Assembly (NCBI GenBank): GCA_028279345.1
Contig: JANQNY010000046.1
Span: forward strand, 1-64,000
Direction: 5' to 3'
Source: Geminicoccaceae bacterium
GTDB taxonomy: Bacteria; Pseudomonadota; Alphaproteobacteria; Geminicoccales; Geminicoccaceae
Length of the DNA stretch: 64,000 nucleotides
Part shown: in pieces, positions 8,397-29,884 of the stretch
Position numbering within the stretch: the first letter of the stretch is position 1
How the letters are laid out: every line of letters starts with the position of its first letter
Notes under the pieces: model-generated
Told to the model about the DNA's origin: nothing
Databases searched by the model: none
Seen by the model: the letters and a program-made list of their open reading frames with translations, nothing else
Position numbers and translations under genes: made by a program

Positions 8397-8501
8397 CCCG
8401 AGCCAGCCATCTGACCTATCACCCGCGCCTTGAAATTGGGTGCTTTCGAGCGCGGCATTTTGGGGCCGGCCGTGGCATCAATCGGTGCGAAGGGGATCGT
8501 C

Positions 8502-8804
8502 ATGGCGCGTCGGTGCGTGCTTACCGGCAAGGGCGTACTCGTCGGCAACAACGTCAGTCACGCCAACAACAAGACCAAGCGGCGCTATCTGCCCAACCTG
8601 CAGAGCCGGCGCCTGTTCAGCGAGGGGTTGGGCGAGACTGTGCGCCTCAAGATCGCGCTCAACACGCTGAGGACCATCGACAAACAGGGTGGGCTCGACG
8701 GCTTTCTCATGTCGAGCAAGGAGCGTGATCTGCCGGCCGACCTCCGCCGCATGAAGAAGCGATTGGAAGAGCGGCAGGCCGAGGCCGCTCCGGCAGGCAG
8801 CTGA
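8502..8804 (+). CDS. rpmB: 50S ribosomal protein bL28
   Basis: 100-residue bL28 protein of the large ribosomal subunit. The start [11 protein letters not shown], the [14 protein letters not shown] motif and the C-terminal helix-rich tail are diagnostic. The tail after about residue 75 ([16 protein letters not shown]) is the alphaproteobacterial extension. GAAGGGGA upstream supports the ATG at 8502 over an in-frame start 72 bases earlier. The family cysteine pair that would bind zinc is absent apart from Cys5. Confidence 0.95.
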
Positions 8805-9349: not shown

Positions 9350-10264
9350 GGCCCCGCCCGGCAAACGGTAGTGCAAGAGAACGGTTCGCTGCAGCGGCGA
9401 CTGGTTGTCGTCGCTGATGAGGAGGAACTCCAAGTCATCGTCGCGGACCTGGACGGCCAATCCCTCGAGATTGTCGATTCCATGGCTCACATCGAAGCGG
9501 GCAATCTCAACCGGCTGCAGAACGTCCTGCTCGAGGGCGGCCAGATCGAGACAGGCAACCCGCGCCTGCCAGCCGCCGAGCAAGCTCAACCGGCGTTCGA
9601 CGATGAACAGGCGATCACCGTACCGGTCGGCGCCCGTCGGCGCGTAGCCTTCGGCAGCGATGTAGGTCAGGCGACGACCTTCGCGCGTGTACGCAGCGTA
9701 GCCCAACTCGCCGAGGCTCTCCGCGATCGCAAGCCACGCGCCGTCCGGCAGGTCGGTGATCGCCTCGAAGCCTCGATTGCCGCTGAAGCCCAGATCGTCC
9801 CAGGTCATGTAGCTGGCGACACGTTCAGGCTCGAGCGTCGAACCCTCGAAGCGAATGACGTAGGGTGGCTCCTCGACGCTCACGAGCAGGTTGCCCTCGC
9901 TCACGGCAAGCCCCTCGAAGTCCTGGCTCCATCCGCTAGGCAAAGGCAGATCGATCTCGCGCCAGCCGGCAACCCCGGTGATGCCGCGACCCTCGCCGCG
10001 CACGAGGATCGCCTGAAAGAGCCGCCCACGGTCGCTCGCGAACAGAAGCCGGTCATCGCCCAAGGTCAGCACGGAGGACAACCCGCCGATCCCCTGGCCA
10101 CCGACGATCTCGAGTGCCGCTGCGCCGAGCAACGAGCCACTGGCCGGTGGCACCGCCAGCCGGTTGACGCTGACGTCGACATCGAGAGCGTCCGCGGCGC
10201 GCGCGCCCGCACCGGCACCAGAGAGGGCGAGGAGCAGAGCGACAAGCAGGCTGGACGTGCGCAT
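9269..10264 (-). CDS. Secreted esterase-like-activity-of-phytase family protein
   Basis: 331-residue protein with an N-terminal signal peptide (residues 1 to about 24, ending in an AxA site). The body matches the PF13449 phytase-esterase-like fold: a beta-propeller with the SSVLTLGDDRLLFASDRGR, DFEGLAV and DNLEGLAV repeats. Homologues are periplasmic or secreted; the reaction is poorly defined. The ATG at 10264 has AAGG upstream; a GTG lies two codons earlier. The family usually ends near LLHYRLP; here about 28 more residues rich in Gly, Glu and His are read antisense into the transporter gene, as if the original stop had been lost. Confidence 0.8.
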   Translation of the reverse strand: MRTSSLLVALLLALSGAGAGARAADALDVDVSVNRLAVPPASGSLLGAAALEIVGGQGIGGLSSVLTLGDDRLLFASDRGRLFQAILVRGEGRGITGVAGWREIDLPLPSGWSQDFEGLAVSEGNLLVSVEEPPYVIRFEGSTLEPERVASYMTWDDLGFSGNRGFEAITDLPDGAWLAIAESLGELGYAAYTREGRRLTYIAAEGYAPTGADRYGDRLFIVERRLSLLGGWQARVACLDLAALEQDVLQPVEIARFDVSHGIDNLEGLAVQVRDDDLEFLLISDDNQSPLQRTVLLHYRLPGGASGGCDALRHEPAEGQEEGNGHGELGG

Positions 10265-10332
10265 GGCCACGCCTTAGCCTTCCTCGGATAGGTGGGCAAG
10301 CGACCGCACCACCCGCTCTCTTTCGGCGCTCC

Positions 10333-10950
10333 ATGGAGCTTTCGCTAGACCCCCAATCGATAATGACGCTGCTCGCAGCCACGCTTCTCGCCATATGGCA
10401 GGCTGCAGCCTACGCGGCCGTGGCGAGTGCGGTCGGCAGCTTTACGCGGGCTTCGAGCACGTTCACGATCGTGGCGCTGCTTCTCCTCCTCGGGCTGAGC
10501 GCGCCCGCAAGCGCACTGCCCCTGCCGGACGCCCTCTCTACACATGTGCTGCCGGCCACGGCGATCGCGCTTGCTGCGGGTATCGCGATCGCCCTCATGG
10601 CCCTGCTCCGTCCGCGTTGGCGGCTCGCCATCCTCGAGCCCTCGGTGTCGCGGGAGCAGCGCTGCGCGACGCCGTGGATCGGCGCCGGGCTCTTGGCCTT
10701 CGCCATCACTTCGATGGCGATTGCTGCGGCGCTCCGAGGCGCGCTCGAGTTTGCCCCCGCCGCGTGGTCGCCCGTCATCTGCGCGCTGGCACTGCCGCCC
10801 GGCGCCGCCATAGGCTGTGCCGCCGCCGCAGGAGGCGTCGAGCTGCTGGTGCAGGTGACGACGGCTCCGCTGCCTGCGACGATGGCAGGGCTCGTCGTCG
10901 CCGCGGCACTCGCCGGCCTCTTGTCCAGATGGCGGGACGGATACGCGTGA
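10333..10950 (+). CDS. LivH-like (branched-chain amino acid type) ABC permease, shortened and divergent
   Basis: 205 residues, very hydrophobic, with six or seven predicted helices. The order of segments, including an N-terminal A-x4-YAAVASAVG helix and the late GAAIGCAAAAGGVELL, echoes LivH/UrtB permeases. It is about 85 residues shorter than the usual length of about 290 and lacks the conserved LivH GLTLGSIYALIALG motif. First gene of an eight-gene operon; its stop overlaps the next GTG as GTGA. Function as a transport channel is doubtful because both downstream ATPase subunits lack catalytic residues. Confidence 0.65.
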   Translation: MELSLDPQSIMTLLAATLLAIWQAAAYAAVASAVGSFTRASSTFTIVALLLLLGLSAPASALPLPDALSTHVLPATAIALAAGIAIALMALLRPRWRLAILEPSVSREQRCATPWIGAGLLAFAITSMAIAAALRGALEFAPAAWSPVICALALPPGAAIGCAAAAGGVELLVQVTTAPLPATMAGLVVAAALAGLLSRWRDGYA

Positions 10951-11816
10951 GGGCCGGCTACGACGCGGCGCTCTGGCTCGTGACCGCAGCCCTGGTCGCG
11001 GCCGCCATCCTCTTCGCCGTGCAGAGCTTCGATGCAACGTCTCGAGATGGCGCGTACTTGGTGATCGCCAGCGGCGCGCTTGCCGCCGCCAGCGCGTTCT
11101 TCGCCAACGGGCTCACCGGCCGGCCGATCCTTGCCCTATCAGTGCCGATGCTTGCAGGCTGGTGGGCGGCGACCTCGGTTGCCTACAGCCTCGACGCGGC
11201 CTTGGGCCTCGCTGCGCTGAGCGGGCTCATCGCCGGCGCCCTGATTGGCGCCGTCGCAACCACGCCAGCACGCCGCACGGCCGCGATCACCCTGGCGCTG
11301 GCGGTGCTTGCAGACCTCACCTCTGATGCCGTCGGCTTTGCTTTCGACCATACACTCGGCGCACCGACGATCGACAGCGGTGCGTGGATAGCCCTGCTGG
11401 CGCTTGCGGCGATCGGATTAGGCTGGCGTGCGGAGGGGAGCCTCGCCGCCGGTCTGTTGGCGCCACGCCCCCACGGCGGCGCGGCGGCGCTAGGCATCGG
11501 ACAGCGGCGCCTTCTGGCACTGAGCGGGGCCATCGGCGGGACCGCCGGCGGCATCGCAGGGGCGCTTCTGGCGATCTCTGCCAGTGGCCCGCCAGACGTG
11601 GTCACCGGGCTGGTGCTGGCCGCCGCAGCGCTCGCGGCCGGTGGCACGATGGCTGGCACCCTGGCGCTGGTGACCGCGCTCTGGGTGCTGCCGCAACTGG
11701 CGCTTCGCGCGACGCCGACGGCGATCGATCTCCAACTCTGGCTGGCCGGGGGCGTGGCGATCGTCGTGCTGGTGCTCGGTCTAGCGGCCAGCCTGCCACG
11801 GCGCGAGCATGGCTGA
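10947..11816 (+). CDS. LivM-like ABC permease, divergent
   Basis: 289-residue hydrophobic protein with about eight to ten helices. Order and spacing of segments follow LivM/UrtC permeases: NGLTGRPILALSVPMLAGW corresponds to the LTG-x-AGQ-x-SLG region, GALIGAVATTPARR to the LPALRLRG region, and VTGLVLAAAALAAGGTMAGTLALV to the late GG-x-G-x3-GP region. The conserved charged and glycine positions are mostly changed. The GTG at 10947 overlaps the previous stop; an ATG at 10929 is an alternative. Overlaps the next gene by eight bases. Identification as LivM-derived is inference from pattern, not from a strong motif. Confidence 0.65.
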   Translation: MRAGYDAALWLVTAALVAAAILFAVQSFDATSRDGAYLVIASGALAAASAFFANGLTGRPILALSVPMLAGWWAATSVAYSLDAALGLAALSGLIAGALIGAVATTPARRTAAITLALAVLADLTSDAVGFAFDHTLGAPTIDSGAWIALLALAAIGLGWRAEGSLAAGLLAPRPHGGAAALGIGQRRLLALSGAIGGTAGGIAGALLAISASGPPDVVTGLVLAAAALAAGGTMAGTLALVTALWVLPQLALRATPTAIDLQLWLAGGVAIVVLVLGLAASLPRREHG

Positions 11817-14298: not shown

Positions 14299-17232
14299 GT
14301 GCCGGGCACCGTGCCGACCACCACATCGCCTGACGCCCTGGCCACTGAGCCGCGCACCTCGCTCGCCCGGCGCACGCTCCTTCGTGCCGCCATCCGTATT
14401 GCCTGCGTGGTGCTCGTCGCGAGCCTCATCGGCTATCTCCACGTCCGAGAGGGCATGGAGACGCAATCCCTCGACAACCTACAACGGTACGTCGAAGAGC
14501 GGCGCGCGCGCGAAAGTCAGGTGCTCGATGCGGCGGAGGCCAGCCTCGGGAGCCTCGATGCGGCCTTCCAGAACGCGCGACGTCAGCTGCCGGACGCCTC
14601 GGATCGGTTCGCCGAGCTGTTCGTCCTGCGACCGGACGAAACACGCCGGACTCCGCGAGCCCTGTTCGACCAAGCCGGGATCAGCGGGTTCGTCGGCAAG
14701 TATGCACGGTTGACGCCGGCCGAGCGCCGCACGCTCGTTGCCGCCGTCGACGTCCTCGACCGCCTGGGCCCGGCGCTGCGCGACCGCTTCCGCAATGCCT
14801 ACCTGGTCACCGCCGACAATGCGGTCGTGATGTACTGGCCGGGCGAGCCTTGGGCGCTCGACGGTGCCGACTGGGAGATCTTCGCGAAGCTCGCCTTGGC
14901 ACCGCGCGGCCAGAACGGCGACGTGCTGGTGACCGGCGCACCTGAGGACGGCGCGCTGGTGCAAGGCCCGCAATGGTCGCCGCTCTATTTCGACTACGGC
15001 ATCAACGAGTGGGTCGTGTCGGTGACGTTGCCGGTCAGCGTCGACGGGCAGGACAGCGCGGCGCTGGGCCATGACCTGCTGGTTCAAGATCTGATCGACC
15101 GCGTCGTCCGCAGCGACATCGACGGTGCCTACAACGTCCTCATCGACGGCGATGGCAACCTGATCGCGCATCCAGCCTATATGCCGGCGATCCAGGCGCA
15201 CAGCGGCGCCATCGCGATCGACGAGACCCATGACGACCTGCTCGTCGAGCTGCGGCGCATCGCCGACACGGCTCGTGACAAGACCCGGGTGTTCGAGCTG
15301 GCGCGCCACGACGTGTTCGTCGCCTGCACGCGCCTCGCGGGCCCGGACTGGTATCTCATGACCGTGTTCCCAAAGGCGCTGATCGCGTCGCAGGCGAGCG
15401 AGGTCGCCTGGCTGATCATCGGTCTGGGCTTGGCCGCGCTCGCGGTCGAGCTTCTATTGCTGTTCAACGTCTTGCGCGGTGGGGTGGGCATCCCGTTGCG
15501 CGCACTCGCCGACGCTGCCGACCGCATTGGTCAGGACCCGAGCGCCCCGCTCGATGCGGTCGAAACGGACTTGCAGCGCCGCGATGAGCTAGGCCGTCTC
15601 GCTCGTGCATTCCATCGGATGGTGGAACAGCTACGCGCACGCCACGACGAGCTGAGCGGTCTCAACCAGGCGCTCGCCCACGAGCTGAACCAGCGCCAGG
15701 AGGCCGAGCGTGAGCTCGAACGGCACCGGGAGCTCAACGCCCTGCTGAACACGATCAACTATGGCGTGCTGTTCGTCGATCAGGATCTCAACTCACGCCT
15801 GGTGAACGCTGCCTACAAGCGCCTTTGGCACACCCCGCCCGGCTTCTTCGAGACCTCACGCACCCTGCGCGAGGATATGGAGGAAAGCCGGCGGCAAGGG
15901 CTCTATGCGGTCAGTGACGACGACTGGCCGAACTATCTGGAGCATCGGCTCAGCACGGTGCGCAACGGCGATGTCGGCCCCGAGGAGATCCACTTCAACG
16001 ACGGTCGCACCCTCACCTATCAGTGCACGGCGCTGCCCGATGGTGGCCGCATGCTGACCTACTTCGACATCACCGAGATCAAGCGCACCGAGGCGACGCT
16101 GCGAGCGCATCTCGAGGGAATGGAAGCGTCGATGGATGGCATGGCGCTACTCGATAACAAGGGTCGCTACGTGTACGTCAACCAGGCGCACGCGGAGGTC
16201 TACGGCTTCCAACGCGACGCGATGATCGGGCAGTCCTGGCGCGAGCTCTACGACGAGGAGGCGTTACGCGACTTCGAGACCTCGATCATGCGGACGCTAG
16301 AAACAACCGGGCGTTGGCGCGGCGAGACGGTCGGGCGGCGGCGCAGCGGCCGGCGCTTTCCGCAAGAGCTGTCGCTCGCGGTGACCGAAACCGGCGGGCT
16401 CGTCTGCGTCGTAAGGGACATCACCGATCGTCGGAACCGCGAGCGTGCGCTCGCTCTGGCGGTGCGTCAGGCCGAGGAGTCCAATGCGGCGAAGTCGCGC
16501 TTCCTCGCCAGCATGAGCCACGAGCTGCGCACGCCGTTGAACGCGATCATCGGCTTCACCCGCATCGTCGCGCGGAAGACGGAGGGGCAGATCGATGCGC
16601 AGCAGCACGACAATCTTCTGAAGATCCAGAGCAGCGGCGAGCAGCTGTTGCGGCTGATCAACGATGTGCTCGACATCTCCAAGATCGAGGCGGGACGCAC
16701 CGAGGTGATGAACGCGCCCTACGCCCCGGCCCTATTGGCTGTCGAATGCGCGCGGATCATCGAGCCGATGCTCGCGCCGGGGGTGCGCCTCGTGACCGAG
16801 ACGGCCGGCGTCACCGAAGGGTGCATCGGCGACGCCGCGAAGGTCCGGCAGATCCTCACCAACCTCCTCAGCAACGCGGCGCGGCACACGATGTCAGGCA
16901 TGATCCGCCTGATCGTAAGCATCGACGAGCAGGTTCTGCGGTTCGTGGTCGAGGACACCGGACGCGGCATCCCGGCCGACGCACTAGACCTGATCTTCGA
17001 GGAGTTCGGCCAGGCGCGAGGTGCGGACCCGGCGCCCCCGGGCGGCACCGGGCTGGGCTTGACCATCAGCCGCCGGCTCGCCCGTCTAATGGGCGGCGAC
17101 ATCTCCGTTGCGAGCACGCCCGGCGAGGGTTCCAGCTTCACCTTGGAGCTGCCGTGGCAACCGGTGCGCGATCAGGCCAACCGCCCCCTGAGGAAGGCTG
17201 AGCCCGTCCAGAACGCAGCCGGCGATGACTGA
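14299..17232 (+). CDS. Membrane sensor histidine kinase: dCache-HAMP-PAS-PAS-HisKA-HATPase
   Basis: 977-residue inner-membrane kinase. TM1 at about 30-50; a large periplasmic region of about 315 residues with dCache features (VTADNAVVMYWPGEPW, VLIDGDGNLIAHP); TM2 at about 369-393; a HAMP and coiled linker to about 470; two PAS domains (about 485-590 and 600-715); HisKA with the H-box SHELRTPLNAI, phospho-acceptor His741; HATPase with ILTNLLSNAARH near 853, DTGRGIP near 888 and GGTGLGL near 915. No receiver domain of its own; the next two genes supply two. GTG start immediately after the binding-protein stop; 8-base overlap with the response regulator. Likely reports ligand occupancy of the binding protein, by inference. 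Confidence 0.9.
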   Translation: MPGTVPTTTSPDALATEPRTSLARRTLLRAAIRIACVVLVASLIGYLHVREGMETQSLDNLQRYVEERRARESQVLDAAEASLGSLDAAFQNARRQLPDASDRFAELFVLRPDETRRTPRALFDQAGISGFVGKYARLTPAERRTLVAAVDVLDRLGPALRDRFRNAYLVTADNAVVMYWPGEPWALDGADWEIFAKLALAPRGQNGDVLVTGAPEDGALVQGPQWSPLYFDYGINEWVVSVTLPVSVDGQDSAALGHDLLVQDLIDRVVRSDIDGAYNVLIDGDGNLIAHPAYMPAIQAHSGAIAIDETHDDLLVELRRIADTARDKTRVFELARHDVFVACTRLAGPDWYLMTVFPKALIASQASEVAWLIIGLGLAALAVELLLLFNVLRGGVGIPLRALADAADRIGQDPSAPLDAVETDLQRRDELGRLARAFHRMVEQLRARHDELSGLNQALAHELNQRQEAERELERHRELNALLNTINYGVLFVDQDLNSRLVNAAYKRLWHTPPGFFETSRTLREDMEESRRQGLYAVSDDDWPNYLEHRLSTVRNGDVGPEEIHFNDGRTLTYQCTALPDGGRMLTYFDITEIKRTEATLRAHLEGMEASMDGMALLDNKGRYVYVNQAHAEVYGFQRDAMIGQSWRELYDEEALRDFETSIMRTLETTGRWRGETVGRRRSGRRFPQELSLAVTETGGLVCVVRDITDRRNRERALALAVRQAEESNAAKSRFLASMSHELRTPLNAIIGFTRIVARKTEGQIDAQQHDNLLKIQSSGEQLLRLINDVLDISKIEAGRTEVMNAPYAPALLAVECARIIEPMLAPGVRLVTETAGVTEGCIGDAAKVRQILTNLLSNAARHTMSGMIRLIVSIDEQVLRFVVEDTGRGIPADALDLIFEEFGQARGADPAPPGGTGLGLTISRRLARLMGGDISVASTPGEGSSFTLELPWQPVRDQANRPLRKAEPVQNAAGDD

Positions 17233-17626
17233 ACCCGAGACCACATCGGGCCACACGCGGCCAAGAGTGCTGGTCGTCGAGGACGTGGACCTCAACCGGG
17301 AACTCCTCGAGCAGCTTCTCGAAGACACGTACGACGTGCGGAGTGCAGCGGACGGCGAGGCTGCACTCGCGGAGGCGCGCGCCTGGCGGCCGCATGTCGT
17401 GCTGCTCGATCTCTCGCTGCCGAAGCTCGACGGATGGGCGGTGGCGCGGTTGATCCGCAACGACAGGGAGCTCGCCAGCATGCGCGTTGTTGCGCTGACG
17501 GCCCATGCGATGTGCGGCGAGCGCGAGACGGCCCTTGCGGCCGGTTGCGATGCCTACCTGACCAAGCCAGTGGACGAGGCGACGCTGCTCGAGGTCGTTC
17601 GGCGCGCGGTCGAGGCGGCGAGGTGA
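17225..17626 (+). CDS. Single-domain response regulator (DivK-like)
   Basis: 133 residues, receiver domain only. Acidic pocket VVEDVD, phospho-acceptor Asp62 in LLDLSLPKLDG, conserved Thr in VVALTAHAM and Lys in YLTKPVD. No output domain, so it acts by protein interaction or as a phosphate relay. It overlaps the kinase gene by eight bases and the cyclase gene by four (GTGA). Probably phosphorylated by the neighbouring kinase and competing or sharing phosphate with the receiver of the cyclase. Confidence 0.9.
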   Translation: MTEPETTSGHTRPRVLVVEDVDLNRELLEQLLEDTYDVRSAADGEAALAEARAWRPHVVLLDLSLPKLDGWAVARLIRNDRELASMRVVALTAHAMCGERETALAAGCDAYLTKPVDEATLLEVVRRAVEAAR

Positions 17627-18678
17627 GCTCGGGCGGGCGGATTCTCGTGGTCGACGACGAGGCGCTCAACCGCGATCTCTTTCAACAAGAGCTCGAGTGC
17701 CTCGGCCATCGCGCGCTCGTCGCGGAGGACGGCCGGGCGGCGCTGGCCGTGCTGGCCACGGAGCCGGTCGATCTCGTCCTTCTCGACATCATGATGCCGG
17801 GCCTCAGCGGGTTCGACGTGCTCGAGCAGCTGCGTGCCGATCCCGTACTGCGGGAGACGCCGGTGATCGTGGTCTCTGCGCTACACGACCTCGCCCATAC
17901 GGCGCGGGGTATCGAACTGGGTGCCGTTGACTACCTACCCAAGCCGTTCGAGCCCGCACTTTTGAAGGCGCGGATCGATGCGTGCCTCGAGCGCCACCGC
18001 TGGCGTGCGCAGGAGCGCGCCTATCTGGACGAGATCGAGCGAGAACGGGCGCGCGCCGATGCGCTGTTGGAGGCCCTGCTGCCGAAGGATGCCGTCGTCG
18101 AGTGGAAGGCGTCGGGGGCGGTGCAGCCGCGCGCCATCGATGCGGTCGCCGTCATGTTCGTCGACATCGTCGGCTTCAGCCGCACGGTTCTCGACCTCTC
18201 GCCCGCAGAGACCGTCGACCAACTGACGCGCTTCACGCTGGCGGCCGAGACTCTGGCCGCCGACGCCGGCCTAGAAAAGATCAAGCTCGTGGGCGACGCG
18301 ATGATGATCTCGGGCAACCTCCTCGTCGCCCATCCGAAACCGGTGCCGGCCTGCCTGGCCGTCGCGCGGCAACTGGCGGCGACCGCACGCCGTATCGGCA
18401 GCGGCTGGTCGCTACGCGGCGGTCTGACTTTCGGTTCCGTCGTCGCCGGCGTGATCGGGCGGCATCGTTTCAGCTTCGACATCTGGGGGCCGACGGTGAA
18501 CCTGGCCGCGCGCCTCGCAGCCCTGCCAGAACCGGGCGTCCTGCACCTTGACGACGCCGCCTATCGCCATCTCGGCCAAGACCTCGCGGCGGAGGCGCTT
18601 GGCGGGCTCGGCCTGCGCGGCGTCGGCACGACCCGGGTCTACCGATGTTCGCTCGACGGCGACACGAGGCGCGGCTGA
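17623..18678 (+). CDS. Receiver-class III adenylate cyclase
   Basis: 351 residues. Receiver domain 1-120 with Asp55 in LLDIMMPGLSG and the Lys of YLPKPFEP. A charged coiled linker runs from about 125 to 150 (ERERARADALLEALLP), then a class III cyclase domain at about 165-330. Metal ligands are Asp181 in MFVDIVGFS and the Asp of KLVGDAMM. The Lys before GDA and the Asp in FDIWG are the adenine-selecting residues, and NLAARL holds the transition-state Asn and Arg, so ATP rather than GTP is the expected substrate. All catalytic positions appear intact. Last gene of the operon; the GTG overlaps the regulator stop and a terminator hairpin overlaps its own stop. Confidence 0.9.
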   Translation: MSSGGRILVVDDEALNRDLFQQELECLGHRALVAEDGRAALAVLATEPVDLVLLDIMMPGLSGFDVLEQLRADPVLRETPVIVVSALHDLAHTARGIELGAVDYLPKPFEPALLKARIDACLERHRWRAQERAYLDEIERERARADALLEALLPKDAVVEWKASGAVQPRAIDAVAVMFVDIVGFSRTVLDLSPAETVDQLTRFTLAAETLAADAGLEKIKLVGDAMMISGNLLVAHPKPVPACLAVARQLAATARRIGSGWSLRGGLTFGSVVAGVIGRHRFSFDIWGPTVNLAARLAALPEPGVLHLDDAAYRHLGQDLAAEALGGLGLRGVGTTRVYRCSLDGDTRRG

Positions 18679-18847: not shown

Positions 18848-19348
18848 TCACACCGGGTAGCCGCACTCGCGAATGAGTCTCCAGATGTCGGCGTTCAGGT
18901 TAGCCAACTCCGCAAGCGCCTGCTGGATCGCCTCGACCGCGGTCTCGTCGATCGCCGAGACTTCCCCCACCTTGATGTTGTCCTTGCGATCGGCAATCCG
19001 CATCAGAATGGTTCGGGCGCTCCCGCTTTCGGCGTCGAACGAGTAGATGCAGTGGTTGTAGCGGTTGCGCAGCCCCGCAATCTTCAGGAGGCGACGGGTC
19101 AGGGTGAGTACGCGCTCACGTTCTTCAACAGGCGTGCGTTCCAGCTTCGCCAGCCGCTCGATAAGGTCGACGCGCGCACGAGTCGTGTTGAGGGTCAAGA
19201 AGACGATGACCGCCGTCTCCTTGTCGGTGCGACAGAGCCCTCCTATCAAATGAATGAGCAGACTCTCGGTATTGGTCCAAGTATAATTGAGTCGCCCAAT
19301 CAACAATAGTACGGAGTCAAACGGAACGACGCCGGCTACAGCACTCAT
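18848..19348 (-). CDS. Helical protein of unknown function with HEPN-like R-N-x3-H motif
   Basis: 166 residues, no signal peptide or membrane segment; predicted mostly alpha-helical. Residues 94-99 read RNRYNH, which fits the R-x4-6-H motif of HEPN ribonucleases, after a long helix with many Arg and Glu (ARVDLIERLAKLE). The N-terminal NYTWTNTESLLIHLIGGL segment is a plausible first helix. It overlaps the LuxR gene by four bases (ATGA), so the two are made together. The HEPN link is suggested only by the motif and helical content; many conserved alphaproteobacterial proteins of unknown role look similar. The 169 bases to the terminator on its 3' side hold no other gene. Confidence 0.6.
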   Translation of the reverse strand: MSAVAGVVPFDSVLLLIGRLNYTWTNTESLLIHLIGGLCRTDKETAVIVFLTLNTTRARVDLIERLAKLERTPVEERERVLTLTRRLLKIAGLRNRYNHCIYSFDAESGSARTILMRIADRKDNIKVGEVSAIDETAVEAIQQALAELANLNADIWRLIRECGYPV

Positions 19349-20034
19349 GACAGCAACTGAAGTGGCTCCGCCGCGGGCACGCCCTGCGAGATATACCAAC
19401 GAGCAGCGCCGGTACGATTGTACACACCGAGCTTCGTGATGATGTTGTGCAGGTGCAGTTTGACCGTGTGTTCCGAGAGCTTGAGCTCCGCGGCGATAGC
19501 CTTGTTGGATTGGCCACGGGCCACCAACTCGACCACGTCGAGCTCGCGCTGCGTCAGAACGCCATCAGCGGGCGAAACCGGTTGCCGTGACGGAACGACG
19601 GCGGCCACGACCGCTGGCTCCGTGGCCGGCAGCAGCTCCGGCGGCACGTAGGTCTCACCGTGCAAGAGCAGACGCAGGACCGAAAGCCAAGTGTCCAGCT
19701 GCCGGTTCATCGGCAAGAGCTTGATCGTCCTGTAACATGGCCGATTCTGACCGGCGTCGAGCAGCTCTTGCGCTGCTTCAGGCCGACGATACGCAAAGAC
19801 GAGGTCCGCCGAACCGGCCGCGTCGCGATAGGCCTGCCGCCGCGCCAGGAGATCGGCGCCAAGAGCCTCATCGAGAATCAGCAGACGCGCGGGCCGCCCC
19901 CCCGCGCTTGCTGTGCTCGCCATGGCATCGACACTGTCGAAGCGCCTAACGTCGAGGCCAGCAAACTCTTGCTCGACAACGCGCAAGATCCGCTTGGAAA
20001 AAGCGACGCACGTTCCTAGAAAAACGAGATCCAT
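19345..20034 (-). CDS. LuxR-family transcriptional regulator with receiver-like N-terminus
   Basis: 229 residues. N-terminal 120 residues have receiver-like strands (LLILDEALG near 55, YRTIKLLPM near 105) but the acidic pocket at strand 1 is missing, so phosphorylation is doubtful. An Ala/Val/Pro linker leads to a C-terminal GerE/LuxR HTH at about 165-222: LTQRELDVVELVARGQSNKAIA, recognition helix in SEHTVKLHLHNI. The start is the ATG at 20034 because GGAGGAGG lies a few bases upstream. It is transcribed away from the secretion genes across a 1.2 kb gap and is the likely regulator of that cluster, by position. Confidence 0.82.
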   Translation of the reverse strand: MDLVFLGTCVAFSKRILRVVEQEFAGLDVRRFDSVDAMASTASAGGRPARLLILDEALGADLLARRQAYRDAAGSADLVFAYRRPEAAQELLDAGQNRPCYRTIKLLPMNRQLDTWLSVLRLLLHGETYVPPELLPATEPAVVAAVVPSRQPVSPADGVLTQRELDVVELVARGQSNKAIAAELKLSEHTVKLHLHNIITKLGVYNRTGAARWYISQGVPAAEPLQLLS

Positions 20035-21209
20035 TAACCTCCTCCCGAGATAAGGATCGACAAGGCTCGCCACGTTTTTTTCTGTATTAACGACTACTTG
20101 AGCCAGTGCCGTGCCGAAAAACGAACGTCGGATCTCCTCAGGGTTGCGAACTCTTCTTAAACAAAAGCCAGTGGACAAAATACCAATTTACCCAAGAACC
20201 GCTTTTATCGCAACAAAACCCTAAATTACCTTTCTGTAAGACGATTTTTCACCTAATGATTGAGATGTTTGGCGTTCCTTGATCTAGAGAGTTACATCTT
20301 TTGTTAGCAGACTGCAACTCGGGAGACTATCGAGCCTGTGCATCATGTGATGCGTCTCGGTCGTATTCGGAGATGCATCGACCGCTGAACACCCTTCCAA
20401 CGAATGCCCGATCAGCGCGGCATCAGCGTTCTGAGCTCCGCGTCGCGGGTGTTGGTCCGACGGCGACGGGGAGCTGACGAGGCGGCCGTGCAGCCGTCCG
20501 TCGCCCGACCTATTGGCGCGAACCGTCTCATCGGCCCCTGCTCGAACGATCTAGTCACCCTCGGTAGTGGCGCCGTTGCTGGCGTCGATGTCGGTGGGCG
20601 GCCCTCGATGGCTGAGACCGACGGATCTCAACCACCAGACGTGCGCAACGTCGCACCGACGATCGTCGTCGGTGTCGGGCGAAAGCCAAGCGATCGGCGC
20701 GCCTCGCCATCATCGTCGTGCACGTGCAGCGCCGCTTCCTAACGTCGCCGCAGCGCGGCACGCTCGGGATTCGTGCAGAGATTCTTTATGAACTTCACCG
20801 CTGCGTCCGGCGCCGGCAACGTCAGGCGTGTCGCGCGGTCCGCGAATACCAGCGCTGTAAGTGATTGAAATCACATGAGCAATTCGATCTAGCTCGGCTT
20901 TCCAGCTTTCCGCCATACGGCCCCTCATGAGACCCTTTCGTTACGGTCGACTGAACGCGATCGGCGGTCTGGCGGGTGGAGCAGAGGCTTACGCCCGGCA
21001 GGCATCGCCGACGCAGTCAGCCGATCCGCGGGCTGAGGGATCGACAGGGGAAGGCACAATCACACCAATCTCCGCCGACGCGGTGCGCGCCCAAGCGATC
21101 GTCGCGAAGGCCTGACCTCAGTTCGAGACTAACCAGCGGGCACGGACGCACATACCACTTTTGAGATGAATGGTGGTCTGCAGCGTGCCCTCCACCCGAG
21201 GATACGAGA
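20035..21209. other. 1.2 kb intergenic region between regulator and secretion genes
   Basis: No convincing gene. The first 300 bases (about 20040-20340) are clearly richer in A and T than the rest of the window, with several A and T runs, and should hold the regulator promoter. The remainder returns to high GC. Short open frames in 20400-21110 lack ribosome sites and protein-like composition. A CRP-like palindrome lies at 20861-20874. GAGG in front of the ATG at 21210 is the ribosome site of the first secreted protein. The length suggests a complex regulatory region or a small RNA, but no RNA could be identified by reading. Confidence 0.6.
20860..20875. promoter_or_regulatory. CRP/FNR-type operator candidate
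   Basis: GTGATTGAAATCAC is an inverted repeat (GTGA-N6-TCAC) that fits the core of the CRP consensus TGTGA-N6-TCACA, with the right flank CA also matching. It sits 335 bases before the start of the low-complexity secreted protein gene. A cAMP-producing enzyme is encoded 2 kb away on the other side of the regulator. No binding has been shown; one such match is expected by chance now and then. Confidence 0.4.
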
Positions 21210-23851: not shown

Positions 23852-23924
23852 TCGCTTCGGACGCAGCGTACAGGCCACGTATCGTGATGCTTGGTATTGT
23901 TGAACCTTTGGGGTGGCATTGAAC

Positions 23925-26126
23925 ATGGCACTAGACGCCGCCACCGAGACCATTGCCCACTTCGCCGGGCTCTTCGAAGTCGCCGTTGAGGCGCCTCGCC
24001 TCCAGATCAAGTTCGATGCCTTCGAGATGGAGCGCGCGTCGTCCGAGCTGGCACCCCTGGAACCGGGCCCGCCCATCGCGCTCAACGCCCCCTACGAGTT
24101 CGCGACCTATAAGGGATCGGTGAGCTACGAGCCCGATCGCGTCACCATCGACGAGACGTTCGAGTGGGCGGCCGAGCCCCTACCCCAATCCATCACCCCG
24201 CCGGCGCCCATCGTTCCACCACCCTTCGAGGCCCTGCTCGAGACAGACCTCTCTGGGGCCGGCGGCTCGGTCGTCACCAACGTCATCGTGCTCGAGGCAC
24301 CGCCGGTCGACATCCCCACGCTGCCGACCCCGCCGTCGGTCGCCACGGTGACCATCCAGCAGAACTACCTCTCCGACAACGACCTGATCACGTCGGATGG
24401 CGACATCACCTTCGCGCCGCTGGCACCATTCGCAGCGGACTTGCTGGCAGCGCAGCAGATTACAGCGGTTGTTTCGGACGCGGTGCTCGGCGACATCCTC
24501 GCGTCGGCAGCGCCGACATCGGCGTTCGCCGCATCGGTCGTCGAGCAGCTCGACCAGGCACGAGAGCCGGTCGTCGACGGGCTCGAGGCGACGATGCTGC
24601 GCGGTGCAGAGGCGGAAGGGCTCTACGTCGACGGCGTCGCGGCCGAGGAGCTGCCCGACTGGCGCGAAAGCCTCCCAGCCGCGTTGCAACCCGAGGAAGA
24701 CGGCGACAGCGAAAGCGGCGCCGATGCCGACGACAGCTCCGGCAAGCCCGGCGTAGCCGTGGCGGGCGATCCGCTCTCGAGTGACGTCGCCTCGGCAACT
24801 GCCGACGAGGACGAGCCCGACGGCGACGAGGAAACGCCACCTGAAACACCCGACAAGGATCCGTTCACGGGAACGCCGGGAGCAGACGACGACGAGGACA
24901 GCCCGTTCGATGTGGATCCGGGCCACGAGATCGTCACCGGCGCCAATCAGGTGATCAACGAGGCCGCCGTGTCCTACGGATGGCTCGACGGCAAGGTCAT
25001 CTCCGTCGCCGGTGACGTGATCGACGTCGACGTGGTGAGCCAGCAGAACCTGCTCATCGACCGCGATGGCACAAGCGGCGAGCAGGCGTCGGCTGCCGCG
25101 GCCGCACCATCACTGGCAGCGGCGAGCGAGGAGGCACCCGCACCGCGCTCGCCCGAGGCGATCAATGCCGCACGCATTTCGAAGGAATCCGCCGCTACCG
25201 ACGATTCGGCGGCGACGGCCGACCTCGACTTGCCTTCCTTCGCCGCCGTCACCCGTATCGACGGGGACGTCTCGCTATTCAACCATATCAAGCAGCACAA
25301 CTACCTCACCGATATGGACCGCGCCGAAGTAAAATTGACGGCGTCCAACTCGTTTATCGGCACCGGCGAAAATATCGCGTTCAACGAAACCTTGCTGACC
25401 GAGATCGGCCTGCGTTTCGACATGATCATGGTCGGCGGCGACATGCTCAAGGTCGACATCGTCGATCAGGTCAACGTGCTGCTCGACAATGACATCGGCA
25501 ACTTCGCCGAGATGCAGGCAAAAAAAGACGCGCTCAGCGACAATCTGCTGATGAACCGCGCCGTCGTCGAGAGCAAGTCGCTCGATACCTACAGCGCCAT
25601 GCAGGACGCCTACGCGCAGAACATGCAGGATTTCAAGGATGGGATGGACACCCTGTCCGATGAGATCATGCAAGACAGCCTCTTTGCCGGCCGGGACCTG
25701 CTCACGGCGCTGTACATCGAGGGCAACTTGTCCCTGGTGAACATCATCGAGCAGCGTAACTACGTCGGTGATCAGGACCAGGTGCATCTGGCCCGTGACG
25801 CCTTCGTCGCCGAGACCGGCGCGCCCATCACCGTCACGACGGGATCCAACGCGCTCCTGAACGCAGCGACGATCACCGAGCATGGCGTCGATTCCGTCGT
25901 CATGGCGGGCGGCGATACGTACAGCGACGCGCTCCTGTACCAAGCCGGCTTCGTGGACACCGACGCGACGCCCACGGGCGTGAGCCTGCCTGCGCTTGCC
26001 AACGAAGCGGTTGCCTTTCTCGCCGACGGCCTGGTGGCCCCGGCGGCGACGGACCACGAGCATGCGCCGTCCATGGCGGACGATTGGTCGACCCCCGTCG
26101 ACGTCATGCAAACCATGCTGACCTGA
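23925..26126 (+). CDS. Acidic repeat protein, second putative type I secretion substrate
   Basis: 733 residues, acidic, no signal peptide. A signature of the form (I/V)-x-Q-x-N-(Y/L/V)-x2-D-x-D occurs five times, near residues 143, 369, 454, 512 and 607 (for example IQQNYLSDND, SQQNLLIDRD, IKQHNYLTDMD, VDQVNVLLDND and IEQRNYVGDQD). Several copies follow a VxGGDM or VAGDV strand. Between copies 1 and 2 lies a Glu/Asp-rich disordered stretch (about 255-330). The D-x-D ends may bind calcium, although the RTX nonapeptide is absent. ATG at 23925 is preferred, with GGGGTGG upstream; a GTG lies 12 bases earlier. The exporter gene follows after 19 bases. I do not recognise a described family. Confidence 0.75.
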   Translation: MALDAATETIAHFAGLFEVAVEAPRLQIKFDAFEMERASSELAPLEPGPPIALNAPYEFATYKGSVSYEPDRVTIDETFEWAAEPLPQSITPPAPIVPPPFEALLETDLSGAGGSVVTNVIVLEAPPVDIPTLPTPPSVATVTIQQNYLSDNDLITSDGDITFAPLAPFAADLLAAQQITAVVSDAVLGDILASAAPTSAFAASVVEQLDQAREPVVDGLEATMLRGAEAEGLYVDGVAAEELPDWRESLPAALQPEEDGDSESGADADDSSGKPGVAVAGDPLSSDVASATADEDEPDGDEETPPETPDKDPFTGTPGADDDEDSPFDVDPGHEIVTGANQVINEAAVSYGWLDGKVISVAGDVIDVDVVSQQNLLIDRDGTSGEQASAAAAAPSLAAASEEAPAPRSPEAINAARISKESAATDDSAATADLDLPSFAAVTRIDGDVSLFNHIKQHNYLTDMDRAEVKLTASNSFIGTGENIAFNETLLTEIGLRFDMIMVGGDMLKVDIVDQVNVLLDNDIGNFAEMQAKKDALSDNLLMNRAVVESKSLDTYSAMQDAYAQNMQDFKDGMDTLSDEIMQDSLFAGRDLLTALYIEGNLSLVNIIEQRNYVGDQDQVHLARDAFVAETGAPITVTTGSNALLNAATITEHGVDSVVMAGGDTYSDALLYQAGFVDTDATPTGVSLPALANEAVAFLADGLVAPAATDHEHAPSMADDWSTPVDVMQTMLT

Positions 26127-26145: not shown

Positions 26146-28542
26146 TTGACCACACAAGCGCAGAAGCTGGGATGGCTCCGCAAGGGGCGCGCCGGTGACG
26201 ATAGAGGCGAAGTTTCGAACGATCTAACGGGCGATGAGCCCTCCGAACCTAGGCGGGAGGGGCGCGGGGGCGTCGTCATCCAGCACCCGCGCCGCCGGCT
26301 GCCGGAGAACGCGACGCCGGCGACCGACGATGCGGGTACGCCGCCGGCAACGGCGCCGACGCGCAATGCCTCGAAGGCAGATGCGGCTCAAGAGCCGGTC
26401 CGAGAGGTGATGGAGCCGAGCACGGCACCGGTGGGCGGCGCGGCGGCAGAAGCCGTGGAGGCGGCGCTCCCGTCCGCCGGCGCCGACCAGTCCGCATCCG
26501 TCAATGCGGCGGGCGAAGGCCACGCCGAGAACGCTCCGCCACCGGTCCGGCATGCCGACGATGCTGCCGACCGGCGACACGCGCCCGACCCGGCACGGCG
26601 AAGGCCAGCCGCGGCCTATATGCGCAAGGCCGATCCGGCCGAGGAGCCGGCCGTCGCCAAGTCAACAGAGCCCAAGGAAACAGCGGGGCTCACCATCGAG
26701 CTCAAGGCCAACGAGCCGATCCTCCGCGACGGCGGCAGCCCCCCGGATCGGGGTGGTGGCAAAGGCGGTGGCGGAGGGGGCGGCGGGGGTGCTTTTCACA
26801 AGCGCTTGGGCCCGGAGGACTTCGCGCAGAGCCTGCGCCAGGGGATCGGCGCGGTCTCCCGCAACCTCGTCTTGGTCATGGTGCTGACCTGCGCGACCAA
26901 CATCCTCATCCTGGCGATCCCGATCTATCTCTTTCAGATCTCGGATCGGGTGCTGACGAGCCGCTCGATCGATACGCTCGTCATGCTGACGGCGGTCATC
27001 GTCGGCGCCATCGTCTTCCAGTGCATCTTCGACGCCATTCGCCGCTTCATGCTGATGCGCACGGCGGTGGAGGTTGCAGCGCGCCTCGGCTCGCCGATTC
27101 TCAGCGCCGCTGCGTCCGCCTCGCTGCACGGCACGGGCCGTGAGTATCAGACCTTGGGAGACCTGCAGCAGCTCCGCAGCTTTCTCGTGTCGGGAACGCT
27201 CTTGTCGTTTCTCGACATCCCTTTCGCGCCGTTGTTCATCCTGGCCATCTTCCTCATCCATCCCGACCTCGGCGCCATCGTGGTCGTGACGGCGATAGCC
27301 CTCCTGGTGATCGCGCTCGTCAATCAGCGGATGACATCGCAGCCCTTCGCCGAAGCCAACTTCTCGCAGGCCAAGGCGAACCAGCATCTCGATTCCATGT
27401 CGCGCAACAGCCAGATCATCAACGCGTTGGCGATGATCCCCGAGGCGGTGATCATCTGGGGCCGTGACACGGCGGCGTCGCTCCGCTCTCAGGTCCGAGC
27501 GCAAGATCGCAACATCGTGTCGGCCGCCATCTCGCGTTGCGTCCGCCTATTGACCCAGGTCGGCATCCTCGGCTGGGGCGCCTACCTTGCCATCCAGGGC
27601 GAGGTGACAGGTGGCATGGTTATCGCCGCATCGATCATCGCCGGCCGGGCGCTCGCACCGATCGAGGGATCGATCGAAGGCTGGAACGCGTTTCTGCTCT
27701 CGCGCGCAGCCTATGGGCGCATCGCGCAACTGTTGAAGAGCTCGGCCCAGCAGTACGAAAAGCTCCGCCTGCCGAGCCCGGAGGGCCGGCTCGACGTCGA
27801 GCGGCTGCTGTTCGTGCCGGCCGGCACCAAGCAGGTGGTCCTCAACGGGATCAGCTTTTCGCTAGCGCCTGGCGAATCGCTGGCGGTGGTGGGCAATTCC
27901 GGTGCCGGCAAGACAACGCTCGGGAAGATGCTGGTGGGCTCGATCCTGCCGACCTCGGGCAATGTGCGGCTGGACCTCATGGACCTGCGCAACTGGGACC
28001 CCCGCCAGTTCGGCGAGAGTATCGGCTATCTGCCGCAGGACGTGCAGCTCTTTCCGGGCACGATCAAGGACAATATCGGCCGGATGCGGCCCGACGCGAC
28101 CGACGAGCAAATCTATGAGGCGGCGGTGCTCGCGGACGTCCACCAGATGATCGCCAACATGCCCAAGGGCTACGAGACGGTCGTCACAGCCGATGGCTCG
28201 CCGCTTTCGGGTGGACAGAAGCAGCGCATCGCGCTCGCGCGCGCCTTCTTCGGCAACCCGCGCATGCTGGTGTTGGACGAACCCAACTCGAACCTGGACG
28301 TCGCGGGCGACAAGGCGCTCGCGCGCGCCATGGAGCACGCCAAGACGAATGGCATCACCGTCGTCGTGATCACGCAGAAGCCAGCGCTCCTGGGCGTCGT
28401 CGACAAGGTGATGCTGCTCACGGACGGCACCGTCGCGCTGTTCGGTCAGCGTGACGACGTGCTGAAGCGCTTGAACGGGAACAAGGGTGCCGGTGGTTCC
28501 GGACCTGTTCCCAAGCCTCTCGGAGAGCAGCCCGATGCGTAA
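26146..28542 (+). CDS. Type I secretion ABC transporter (PrtD-type permease/ATPase)
   Basis: 798 residues. The first 200 or so are Pro/Ala/Glu-rich, apparently disordered, ending in a run of glycines (about 203-216); this extension is missing from ordinary PrtD proteins of about 580 residues. A membrane domain of about six helices spans 235-515. The ATPase has Walker A GNSGAGKTT near 585, signature LSGGQKQR near 686, Walker B MLVLDEP near 706 and QKP at the switch position, where His is more usual. Energises export of the two proteins encoded upstream together with the HlyD adaptor; the outer-membrane TolC partner is not in the window. TTG start supported by GGAGGA at 26132-26137. Confidence 0.9.
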   Translation: MTTQAQKLGWLRKGRAGDDRGEVSNDLTGDEPSEPRREGRGGVVIQHPRRRLPENATPATDDAGTPPATAPTRNASKADAAQEPVREVMEPSTAPVGGAAAEAVEAALPSAGADQSASVNAAGEGHAENAPPPVRHADDAADRRHAPDPARRRPAAAYMRKADPAEEPAVAKSTEPKETAGLTIELKANEPILRDGGSPPDRGGGKGGGGGGGGGAFHKRLGPEDFAQSLRQGIGAVSRNLVLVMVLTCATNILILAIPIYLFQISDRVLTSRSIDTLVMLTAVIVGAIVFQCIFDAIRRFMLMRTAVEVAARLGSPILSAAASASLHGTGREYQTLGDLQQLRSFLVSGTLLSFLDIPFAPLFILAIFLIHPDLGAIVVVTAIALLVIALVNQRMTSQPFAEANFSQAKANQHLDSMSRNSQIINALAMIPEAVIIWGRDTAASLRSQVRAQDRNIVSAAISRCVRLLTQVGILGWGAYLAIQGEVTGGMVIAASIIAGRALAPIEGSIEGWNAFLLSRAAYGRIAQLLKSSAQQYEKLRLPSPEGRLDVERLLFVPAGTKQVVLNGISFSLAPGESLAVVGNSGAGKTTLGKMLVGSILPTSGNVRLDLMDLRNWDPRQFGESIGYLPQDVQLFPGTIKDNIGRMRPDATDEQIYEAAVLADVHQMIANMPKGYETVVTADGSPLSGGQKQRIALARAFFGNPRMLVLDEPNSNLDVAGDKALARAMEHAKTNGITVVVITQKPALLGVVDKVMLLTDGTVALFGQRDDVLKRLNGNKGAGGSGPVPKPLGEQPDA

Positions 28543-29884
28543 GACATCTCAACTGCCGGCGGTCACCACGGTCTCGGGCTGGTACAATGACGTGCCACGC
28601 TCCATCACCGCCCATGCCGTCGTCGGGCTCGTTCTCATGGTCGTCGCCTTCGGCGGCTTCGGCGCCTGGGCATTCTTCGCCCCCCTCGCCGCCGCGGTCA
28701 TCGCGCAGGGTAGCTTCGTCGCGACCGGCCAAAACAAGGTGGTTCAGCACCTCGAGGGTGGCATTATTAGCGAGCTCCTCGTGAGCGAAGGCGACTTCGT
28801 CCGCGCCGGGCAGCCACTGGTCCGCATGGACGAGACCCAGGCGAAAGCGAACAAGCGAGAGCTGTTTATCCGCCAGGTGCGCCTCGAAGCGACCGCGGCG
28901 CGACTGCTCGCGGAGTACGACGGACGGGAGGAACTCGTCTTTCCCGACCGTGTTCTGGCGGCCGAGGATGACCCCGAAGTGGGAACGATCATCGATGAGC
29001 AGATGCTGGCGTTCAAGACGCGGCGGCTGTCGCTCGAGAAGGACGTCGCACTCCTGTCGCGCAACATCGACGCCTTGGACTTGCGGGCGCGCGGCTACGA
29101 GATGCAGCTCGAATCGTTCCGCGCCCAGGTGGAGATCTTCGAGGAGGAAAAAGGGGCCAAGGCGCAGCTCCTCGCCAAGGGTTTGACCCTGCGGACCGAG
29201 ATGAACGCTCTCAAGCGGGCAACAGTGGAGGCCGTCGGGCACATCGGGCGATTGGAGGCCGAAATGGCCGAGATCGACCAGATCCGCCTCCGCTACGAGG
29301 TGCAGATCGAACGGACGCAGAGCGAGTACCGGCAGGCGGCGTTGGACGAGCTGCAGCTCGTGCAGAGCGAGTTCGAAAGCGTCCGCGAAAAGATGCGCAA
29401 GGCGGACGACGTGCTGCATCGTTCGGTGGTCACGGCGCCGGTGACCGGCACCGTGTTTCGGATGCACTACCACACGCCGGGTGGCGTCATCGAGAGCGGC
29501 AAAGCGATCCTCGAAATCCTGCCGTCCGAAGCACCACTGATCATCGAAGCTCAGGTTCCGCGCACCGATATCGACAGCGTGCAGCCGAACCAGACGGCAA
29601 CCGTCAGGCTGTCGGCGCTGAACCAGCGCACGACCCCGGTGCTCTACGGGGAAGTCTTCTATGTCTCCGCCGACGCGATCGCCGATACGGCCGATGCCGC
29701 GGCGACCGAGGTCTACGTCGCCAGGATTTCTCTGGACGCAGATCAGCTCCAACGGGTCCGCGGGTTCACACCTACCCCCGGCATGCCCGCCGAGATCATG
29801 ATCCAGACCGAAGAACGGACCTTCGCCCAGTACATCGCGCGCCCCGTGGTCGACAGCATGCAGAGGGCCTTCCGCGAGCAGTGA
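28535..29884 (+). CDS. Type I secretion membrane fusion protein (HlyD/PrtE family)
   Basis: 449-residue periplasmic adaptor. One N-terminal membrane helix (about 27-50), then the lipoyl half-motif QHLEGGIISELLVSEGDFV near 73, a long alpha-helical hairpin (about 105-300), the second lipoyl half VTAPVTGTVFRM near 305, and a C-terminal beta domain with the family-typical GMPAEIMIQTEERT. It links the exporter to a TolC-type channel. The start is the ATG at 28535, overlapping the exporter gene by eight bases. Last gene of the secretion cluster. Confidence 0.92.
   Translation: MRKTSQLPAVTTVSGWYNDVPRSITAHAVVGLVLMVVAFGGFGAWAFFAPLAAAVIAQGSFVATGQNKVVQHLEGGIISELLVSEGDFVRAGQPLVRMDETQAKANKRELFIRQVRLEATAARLLAEYDGREELVFPDRVLAAEDDPEVGTIIDEQMLAFKTRRLSLEKDVALLSRNIDALDLRARGYEMQLESFRAQVEIFEEEKGAKAQLLAKGLTLRTEMNALKRATVEAVGHIGRLEAEMAEIDQIRLRYEVQIERTQSEYRQAALDELQLVQSEFESVREKMRKADDVLHRSVVTAPVTGTVFRMHYHTPGGVIESGKAILEILPSEAPLIIEAQVPRTDIDSVQPNQTATVRLSALNQRTTPVLYGEVFYVSADAIADTADAAATEVYVARISLDADQLQRVRGFTPTPGMPAEIMIQTEERTFAQYIARPVVDSMQRAFREQ

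Follow-up and report, generated by a model that had tools for sequence, protein, structure and literature searches.

The window analysed here comprises the first 64,000 nucleotides of contig JANQNY010000046.1 from a Geminicoccaceae bacterium (assembly GCA_028279345.1). On its minus strand, a gene for a LuxR-type regulator is joined to a gene for a 166-residue protein, here called the partner, and the two face a divergent gene for a presumed type I-secreted adhesin, beyond which lie ABC and HlyD genes of type I secretion (Table 1). The initial annotation had noted the ATGA overlap of the two genes, the secretion genes nearby, and the sequence RNRYNH at residues 94-99 of the partner, and all three are present (the overlap at 19348..19345). 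We find that the partner belongs to the type I secretion island and not to the LuxR gene as such, and that the leader of the presumed adhesin mRNA forms a hairpin with covarying stems and a conserved loop. Tentatively, we suggest that the partner acts on this hairpin.

Table 1. Positions in the window of the gene pair, the divergent secretion genes and the leader RNA element
Feature	Position	Strand	Remarks
HEPN-like protein (partner), 166 aa	18848..19348	-	ATG at 19348, stop 18848-18850; R94-N95-x3-H99; D61-x3-R65 in helix 2
ATGA stop/start overlap of LuxR and partner genes	19345..19348	-	4 shared bases
LuxR-type regulator, GerE domain, 229 aa	19345..20034	-	counted from ATG at 20034
Leader RNA element, two-helix hairpin, GARAUGA-type loop	21133..21198	+	directly 5' of ribosome-binding site; model R1 43.1 bits, E 5.2e-8 (training sequence)
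Outer helix, 5' arm	21138..21144	+	pairs with 21184-21190; minimum-energy fold
Inner helix, 5' arm	21154..21158	+	pairs with 21173-21177
Conserved 14-nt apical loop	21159..21172	+	
Inner helix, 3' arm	21173..21177	+	pairs with 21154-21158
Outer helix, 3' arm	21184..21190	+	pairs with 21138-21144
Shine-Dalgarno-like AGGA	21199..21202	+	before ATG at 21210; read from sequence
Presumed type I-secreted adhesin, low-complexity, 865 aa	21210..23807	+	homologues rich in QX, NX, SE dipeptides; function presumed
737-aa protein of no known family, start uncertain	23913..26126	+	homologue in 75/80 loci; plasmid census
Type I secretion ABC transporter	26146..28542	+	TIGR01842, 691 bits
HlyD-type periplasmic adaptor, start uncertain	28487..29884	+	TIGR01843, 384 bits

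A scan of genome contigs for relatives of the partner returned 226 stretches, of which the best 80 loci were kept. Judged by their record titles, these come mostly from Rhodobacterales, with some from Rhizobiales; as RNRYNH falls within one of the six peptide seeds used, the set leans towards members that keep the motif. A LuxR homologue lies close upstream of the partner in 76 of the 80 loci, and in 37 of those 76 a start codon falls exactly at the ATGA position, so that the arrangement is beyond chance. Most loci share the organization of the window, in which the pair faces a divergent operon made up of the low-complexity protein, the 737-aa protein, the ABC transporter and the HlyD adaptor. 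A homologue of the low-complexity protein is detected in 75 of 80 loci, a count that BLAST may inflate. The 865-aa presumed adhesin has no Pfam match, and the 737-aa protein has no match in Pfam, NCBIfam or the PDB sequences.

The tie between the partner and the island is seen most clearly in a collection of 72,556 plasmid records, where the partner occurs in 33 and the 737-aa protein in 32, all of them among the 33 (several records are close strains, and so do not represent 32 independent events). The odd record is Sinorhizobium fredii pSF25509b (locus L232), in which no match to the 737-aa protein, to HlyD or to LuxR lies within 8 kb of the partner; this lone gene is possibly a remnant of an island. 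The four of 80 loci that have no LuxR gene close upstream include two at contig edges and two (L072 and L074) that show none in the stretch examined, and the same holds for the plasmid loci L192, L228 and L229. In L091, L196 and L231, the partner follows HlyD and thus ends the secretion operon, with a LuxR gene at the opposite end. Since partner and 737-aa protein co-occur on plasmids and the partner persists where no LuxR gene adjoins it, the partner belongs to the island. It is also the better conserved of the pair: the window's partner is 54-67% identical to its 80 relatives (median 60), the LuxR protein 29-54% identical to 76 relatives (median 37), and the partner is the closer of the two to the window's copy in all 76 loci that have both.

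The hairpin came up in an intergenic k-mer search that was aimed at a LuxR operator. It appeared at the 5' end of the adhesin gene as an inverted repeat, with arms that vary between genera and a loop of approximately UUUUGARAUGANUG that is kept. A first count of the motif was weak (35 of 74, versus 12-16 in shuffles), and a first hairpin scan gave 54 of 76 leaders versus 5-8 in mononucleotide shuffles. Under a stricter rule (GARATGA in the loop with at most one mismatch, and a stem of at least 5), which was learned from these same leaders, 51 of 83 leaders have the hairpin, versus 2-4 of the shuffled leaders. The same rule is satisfied upstream of LuxR in 7 of 76 cases, upstream of the partner in 2 of 80, upstream of the 737-aa gene in 0 of 75, and in 13 of 400 random stretches.

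Covariation was measured in an alignment of 34 sequences (A2) that were chosen by the inner helix, the outer helix having played no part in the choice. For the 13-pair structure, 68.4% of cells are paired (55.9±1.6 when shuffled; 0 of 500 shuffles as high), and the covariation is 0.479 (0.257 when shuffled; again 0 of 500). Pairing falls to 28-47% when the partners are slid by 1-3 columns, and by helix it amounts to 51.1% of cells for the outer and 88.7% for the inner. When 50 sites were instead chosen by the loop alone, and arms were swapped between loci for comparison, the inner run was 3.24 versus 1.84±0.18 and the outer run 4.74 versus 3.81±0.11. The two helices are present, whole or in part, in minimum-energy folds of eight leaders. 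An adhesin start supported by a Shine-Dalgarno sequence follows within 14 nt of the 66-nt element in 31 of the 48 tabled elements. We also considered the AUG of the loop as a conserved upstream start codon, and rejected it, as its frame with respect to the adhesin is distributed 17/16/15 among 48 elements (56 elements looked at).

Searched against 90 sources (1.2 Mb), a covariance model of the element (R1) finds 65 matches at E≤1, never more than one in a source. Of these, 31 are outside the training set, 24 of them at E≤0.01. Where an adhesin open reading frame (ORF) is tabled, 61 of 62 matches lie within -33 to +14 nt of its 5' end, the exception being a match with E 0.49. The 65 matches are 72.6% paired, with a covariation of 0.470 versus 0.245, in an alignment that is itself fitted to the structure. 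In the window's genome, the only R1 match at E≤1 is the element of the window, and among 30 other genomes, 29 have a match at E≤0.1 with a bit score equal to that of the leader match; these 30 were chosen from the loci, and 20 of them had been used for training; of the remaining 10, 9 match. A second, weak match (E 0.05-0.08) is present in two of the 29 genomes. A second model (R2), tried on 21 loci, recovers at E≤0.05 four of the seven sources missed by R1 that include an adhesin 5' end and are neither rhizobial nor of the P. denitrificans group; the rhizobial leaders are missed by both models, and R1 run unfiltered on six rhizobial loci finds nothing at the leader. Under a looser rule, which has no control of its own, five loci (L192, L196, L228, L229 and L231) show hairpins whose loop core is the same and whose stems differ; the hairpin of L230 is weak and that of L091 doubtful. 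Rfam gives nothing at gathering score in five loci, and nothing that overlaps the window element at E≤5.

The initial annotation had described the partner as helical and HEPN-like. The conservation and the placement of its motif speak for the second point, and the predicted fold is helical and compatible with the HEPN arrangement; what did not follow is a library profile or a significant fold match. In HEPN families, as set out in section 7 of PMC3710099, the motif Arg is mostly followed by N, D or H, many families (not all) have an acidic Ex3[KR] motif in helix 2, and the fold has four helices, with the motif at the end of helix 3 or the start of the loop to helix 4. The partner has R94-x4-H99, and R94, N95 and H99 are shared by all 81 sequences, so that both of the residues whose conservation had been in question are kept throughout. 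Position 61 is D in 76 and E in 5 of the 81, four residues before R65, which is present in all 81. In the AF2 model of the window protein (pLDDT 87.7), D61 and R65 are in a predicted helix (56-67), and a helix at 74-97 leads into a strand at 100-104. The model of a distant homologue (pLDDT 91.0) is similar, with a helix at 69-93 and a strand at 95-99, and with R89 and H94 as the motif residues. Both have four main helical segments, with the Arg ending the third and the His directly after it, followed by beta-strands and a long last helix; two of the four segments are kinked in the window-protein model. Given the conserved R94, N95 and H99, the fact that both models place the motif where helix 3 ends, and the acidic residue and Arg of helix 2, we judge membership of the HEPN superfamily to be probable, though not proven.

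The distant homologues come from profile searches. Among 385 genomes of the class, the partner is found in the window's genome and two others; in the order of genome G215 (76 genomes), eight genomes have homologues, with 10 matches in total. Most of these 10 have 230-304 aa and are extended at the N-terminus by an additional region (L126 runs into a contig end), and 8 of 10 keep R-N-x3-H. In a 45-row alignment that includes these eight and leaves out the two without the motif (L089 and L131), the motif R and H are invariant in 45 of 45 rows and only 13 columns are invariant overall; the residue after the motif R is H in L092 and L194. The acidic residue four before the Arg was read in 7 of the 8 distant homologues, L130 having G. 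In this alignment, L133 is 26-34% identical to island members. Several of the distant homologues adjoin a transposase gene, with an IS1595-type zinc ribbon in both of the neighbours tested and the others judged by eye.

These lines of evidence come together in the simplest reading, that the partner acts on the leader RNA, because an RNase-type motif, a structured RNA before the ribosome-binding site and a strict genomic link are found in combination. We therefore propose, as a reading that may well be correct but that we hold tentatively, that the HEPN-superfamily partner is a dedicated post-transcriptional regulator of the adhesin of its own island, operating via the leader hairpin, with LuxR responsible for transcription. 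The partner would be an RNA-acting HEPN protein, most likely a metal-independent endoribonuclease, and would recognise the conserved GARAUGA-type loop presented on a stem of free sequence. By cleaving or occupying the hairpin just 5' of the Shine-Dalgarno sequence, it would set the translation or the stability of the message, and the coupled LuxR-type regulator would control how the divergent genes are transcribed. Repression would be the more likely effect, to judge by the analogous HEPN protein MtlR. Binding of the hairpin by the partner, its cleavage, an action of LuxR at the promoters concerned and the direction of the effect are what we infer. A more speculative possibility is that of a one-target RNA switch, in which a HEPN ribonuclease evolved with a single cis hairpin and, together with LuxR, makes up a self-contained transcription-plus-mRNA unit; as the island spread among Rhodobacterales and Rhizobiales, this unit would have travelled with it.

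Several observations weigh against this proposal. The link between protein and RNA is indirect. S. fredii is the only record, of those examined, in which the partner is separated from the other island genes, and hardly any island without a partner was found, so that gain and loss of partner and hairpin cannot be correlated. On the RNA side, the loose scan gives 17 hairpin-like matches on the opposite strand, and the eight leaders folded singly have modest energy z-scores (-0.26 to -2.76). There is no R1 match in 25 of the 90 sources: in five, the stretch examined does not contain the 5' end of an adhesin gene, 11 are rhizobial, two belong to the Paracoccus denitrificans group, and the last seven are of neither group. 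L072 and L074, where no LuxR gene adjoins the partner, have leaders that fail the stricter hairpin rule. On the protein side, 2 of the 10 distant homologues (L089 and L131) are without the R/H motif, L089 matching the first half of the profile only. Pfam, NCBIfam and PADLOC contain no family that the partner matches significantly. By hhalign, the HepT-like family aligns motif on motif at E 0.0075 and a probability of only ∼5%; PF05168, PF08780 and PF18734 are weaker, and HepT-like is the only one of the four families in which the motifs coincide. Neither AF2 model has a Foldseek match in the PDB at E≤0.001. HEPN structures do appear in the VIA-align lists, at background-level Z among unrelated helical bundles: for the window-protein model, Csm6 (4rgp; Z 7.4, rmsd 3.6, 108 aligned) and MntA-HepT (6m6u: Z 6.8, rmsd 4.4, 105 aligned; 7bxo: Z 5.7, rmsd 4.0, 104 aligned), and for the second model, the MtlR chain 6kcr_C (Z 5.4, rmsd 4.0, 106 aligned). 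Csm6 and HepT are not among the 50 matches listed for the second model, which proves nothing either way.

Sequence searches of the PDB with the partner likewise give weak matches only (E 0.2 or worse), and hmmscan of 63 members places no HEPN family, and no MtlR, among the 14 families matched at E≤0.1; Pfam presumably holds a model for MtlR. In this search, individual members also matched HTH_30, FliG and other families (E ∼0.001-0.1), which we attribute to chance. The best structural match to the second model is a viral protein of 159 aa (BFVD A0A4Y5TZQ9; Foldseek probability 1.00, TM 0.63, E 1.3e-3, 16% identity).

Of the two functions that the initial annotation had suggested for the partner, regulation at the RNA level gains support from the covarying hairpin on the adhesin mRNA, while that of a LuxR anti-activator is not supported. 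According to the latter, the partner would be a LuxR-binding anti-activator or co-regulator, and the hairpin would be part of a different control, such as a thermosensor or one exerted by a small RNA or a different RNA-binding protein. The tight coupling, with LuxR close upstream in 76 of 80 loci and a start codon at the ATGA position in 37 of the 76, is what such a function would lead one to expect, but the partner occurs with no LuxR gene beside it in five loci (L072, L074, L192, L228 and L229, in the stretch examined), ends the secretion operon in three, and is better kept than LuxR in 76 of 76. Its conserved residues, moreover, appear catalytic rather than interface-like. We regard this explanation as unlikely. 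The five loci also argue against a toxin-antitoxin-like pair, in which a HEPN toxin, with LuxR as its upstream antitoxin or regulator, would form an addiction element beside the island. An upstream regulator with a four-base overlap, the presence on plasmids and the HEPN-type motif would all suit such a pair; however, the coupled gene encodes a GerE regulator and no nucleotidyltransferase, the plasmid copies follow one secretion island, and the evolution is slow (54-67% identity over the 80 loci kept). On balance, a toxin-antitoxin pair is improbable.

Two further explanations concern the RNA and the way in which it would be used. The inverted repeat might be a DNA operator for LuxR and not an RNA structure, as its inverted arms and its site in a divergent intergenic region would allow, but the arms vary between genera with complementarity kept, conservation is in the loop and not in the arms, and the site is directly before the adhesin Shine-Dalgarno sequence in many loci. 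Under the looser rule, hairpins also occur where no LuxR gene adjoins the partner (L192, L228 and L229), and we consider an operator highly improbable. Lastly, the partner might bind the leader RNA without cutting it and block or promote its translation, either as a HEPN-like protein or as a helical RNA-binding protein of unrelated origin. Such a role is in keeping with the lack of a significant match to a solved structure and has a precedent in MtlR, a large fraction of which is without the motif in the account given in PMC3710099. The motif is kept, however, in 81 of 81 island members examined, and a non-cutting protein seems to us rather improbable.

Of the systems described previously, the HEPN RNases (HepT of HEPN-MNT pairs, Csm6/Csx1 and Abi) are those with which the partner is most directly compared. 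Most of what is known of HEPN proteins concerns toxins and defence RNases, and Csx1 likewise has a beta-hairpin directly after the motif (both as described in PMC3710099). The partner differs from these in having no profile match, in a beta-rich stretch of ∼35 residues between the motif and the last helix (in the model), and in being tied to a secretion island instead of a defence or toxin-antitoxin pair. In the window, no counterpart of the nucleotidyltransferase gene that adjoins HepT in HEPN-MNT pairs is coupled to the partner, the coupled gene being of the GerE type, and none is annotated beside the partner in L090, L193, L194 or L195. The same source describes MtlR as a HEPN-family repressor of the mannitol operon that is not an ordinary DNA-binding factor and is proposed to act on RNA (PMC3710099). 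MtlR thus resembles the partner as a HEPN-type regulator dedicated to one operon, and the second model has the MtlR chain 6kcr_C among its weak structural neighbours, but the partner has no sequence match to MtlR, its motif is fully conserved, and a dedicated leader hairpin accompanies it.

As far as we know, the nearest described secreted protein is BapA of the BapA/BapBCD biofilm system of Paracoccus denitrificans, which belongs to a different operon. It is likewise a type I-secreted, low-complexity surface protein of dipeptide repeats, but its repeats are Asp-Ala and its operon (Pden_2411-2413) includes an outer-membrane component; no HEPN-like protein or leader hairpin is described with it in the account of this operon in PMC5588039. 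In the open-access literature searched, no HEPN protein was linked to a type I-secreted adhesin or to the hairpin described here. If the proposal is correct, a HEPN-like protein would be a dedicated gene regulator for which both protein and target are named, and which can be tested in cultivable marine bacteria (Ruegeria, Sulfitobacter). A HEPN enzyme would have a defined physiological mRNA target in place of a defence or toxin role. Functions would also be assigned to a protein family that has no Pfam or NCBIfam name (226 relatives in one scan) and to an RNA element with no Rfam match.

The LuxR-type regulator itself has a GerE domain (70 bits), and a GerE search of the window's genome finds this protein and one other. 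LuxR regulators of the CsgD/VpsT type control biofilm genes; the window protein shares the GerE domain with these, but is coupled to a HEPN-like gene and scores far below the cut-off of the CsgD model (48.8 bits, in the DNA-binding part, versus 250 bits). By eye, its N-terminal region resembles a degenerate receiver, and among 77 aligned LuxR proteins, 48 have D and 12 have E at position 55. A longer frame is also open, starting from a TTG at 20178.

When 60 genomes were searched as relatives of the window's own, 30 of the other 59 being of the same genus or family, only the window's genome gave a convincing match to the partner, which makes horizontal acquisition likely. A weak match in a genome of the window's family (L004, genome G026) was dropped, as it looks by eye like seryl-tRNA synthetase. 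Four of the distant homologues (L127, L130, L132 and L133), all of which keep R-N-x3-H, adjoin transposase genes (the IS1595-type zinc ribbon was confirmed for L127 and L133), as if they were HEPN-like passenger genes of an insertion sequence. A search of PHROGs with the partner gave a family of unknown function (phrog_38776, E 0.01), and phage records gave no match. L074 has a second, partial HEPN-like stretch (8302-8562, E 1.3e-5) downstream of the full copy. In L191, LuxR and HEPN-like sequences are in one frame of 416 aa (10239-11486); this case was set aside, since the genes around it in the record are fragmented, which makes a genuine fusion doubtful. Elsewhere in the window's genome, there are HepT-like and AbiU2-type HEPN matches (G000:C54:9791-10072 and G000:C1:33066-33569). 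Just beyond the partner, positions 14299-18678 of the window encode a sensor histidine kinase (PAS, Cache) and a protein with receiver and guanylate-cyclase domains, which are possibly linked to LuxR control.
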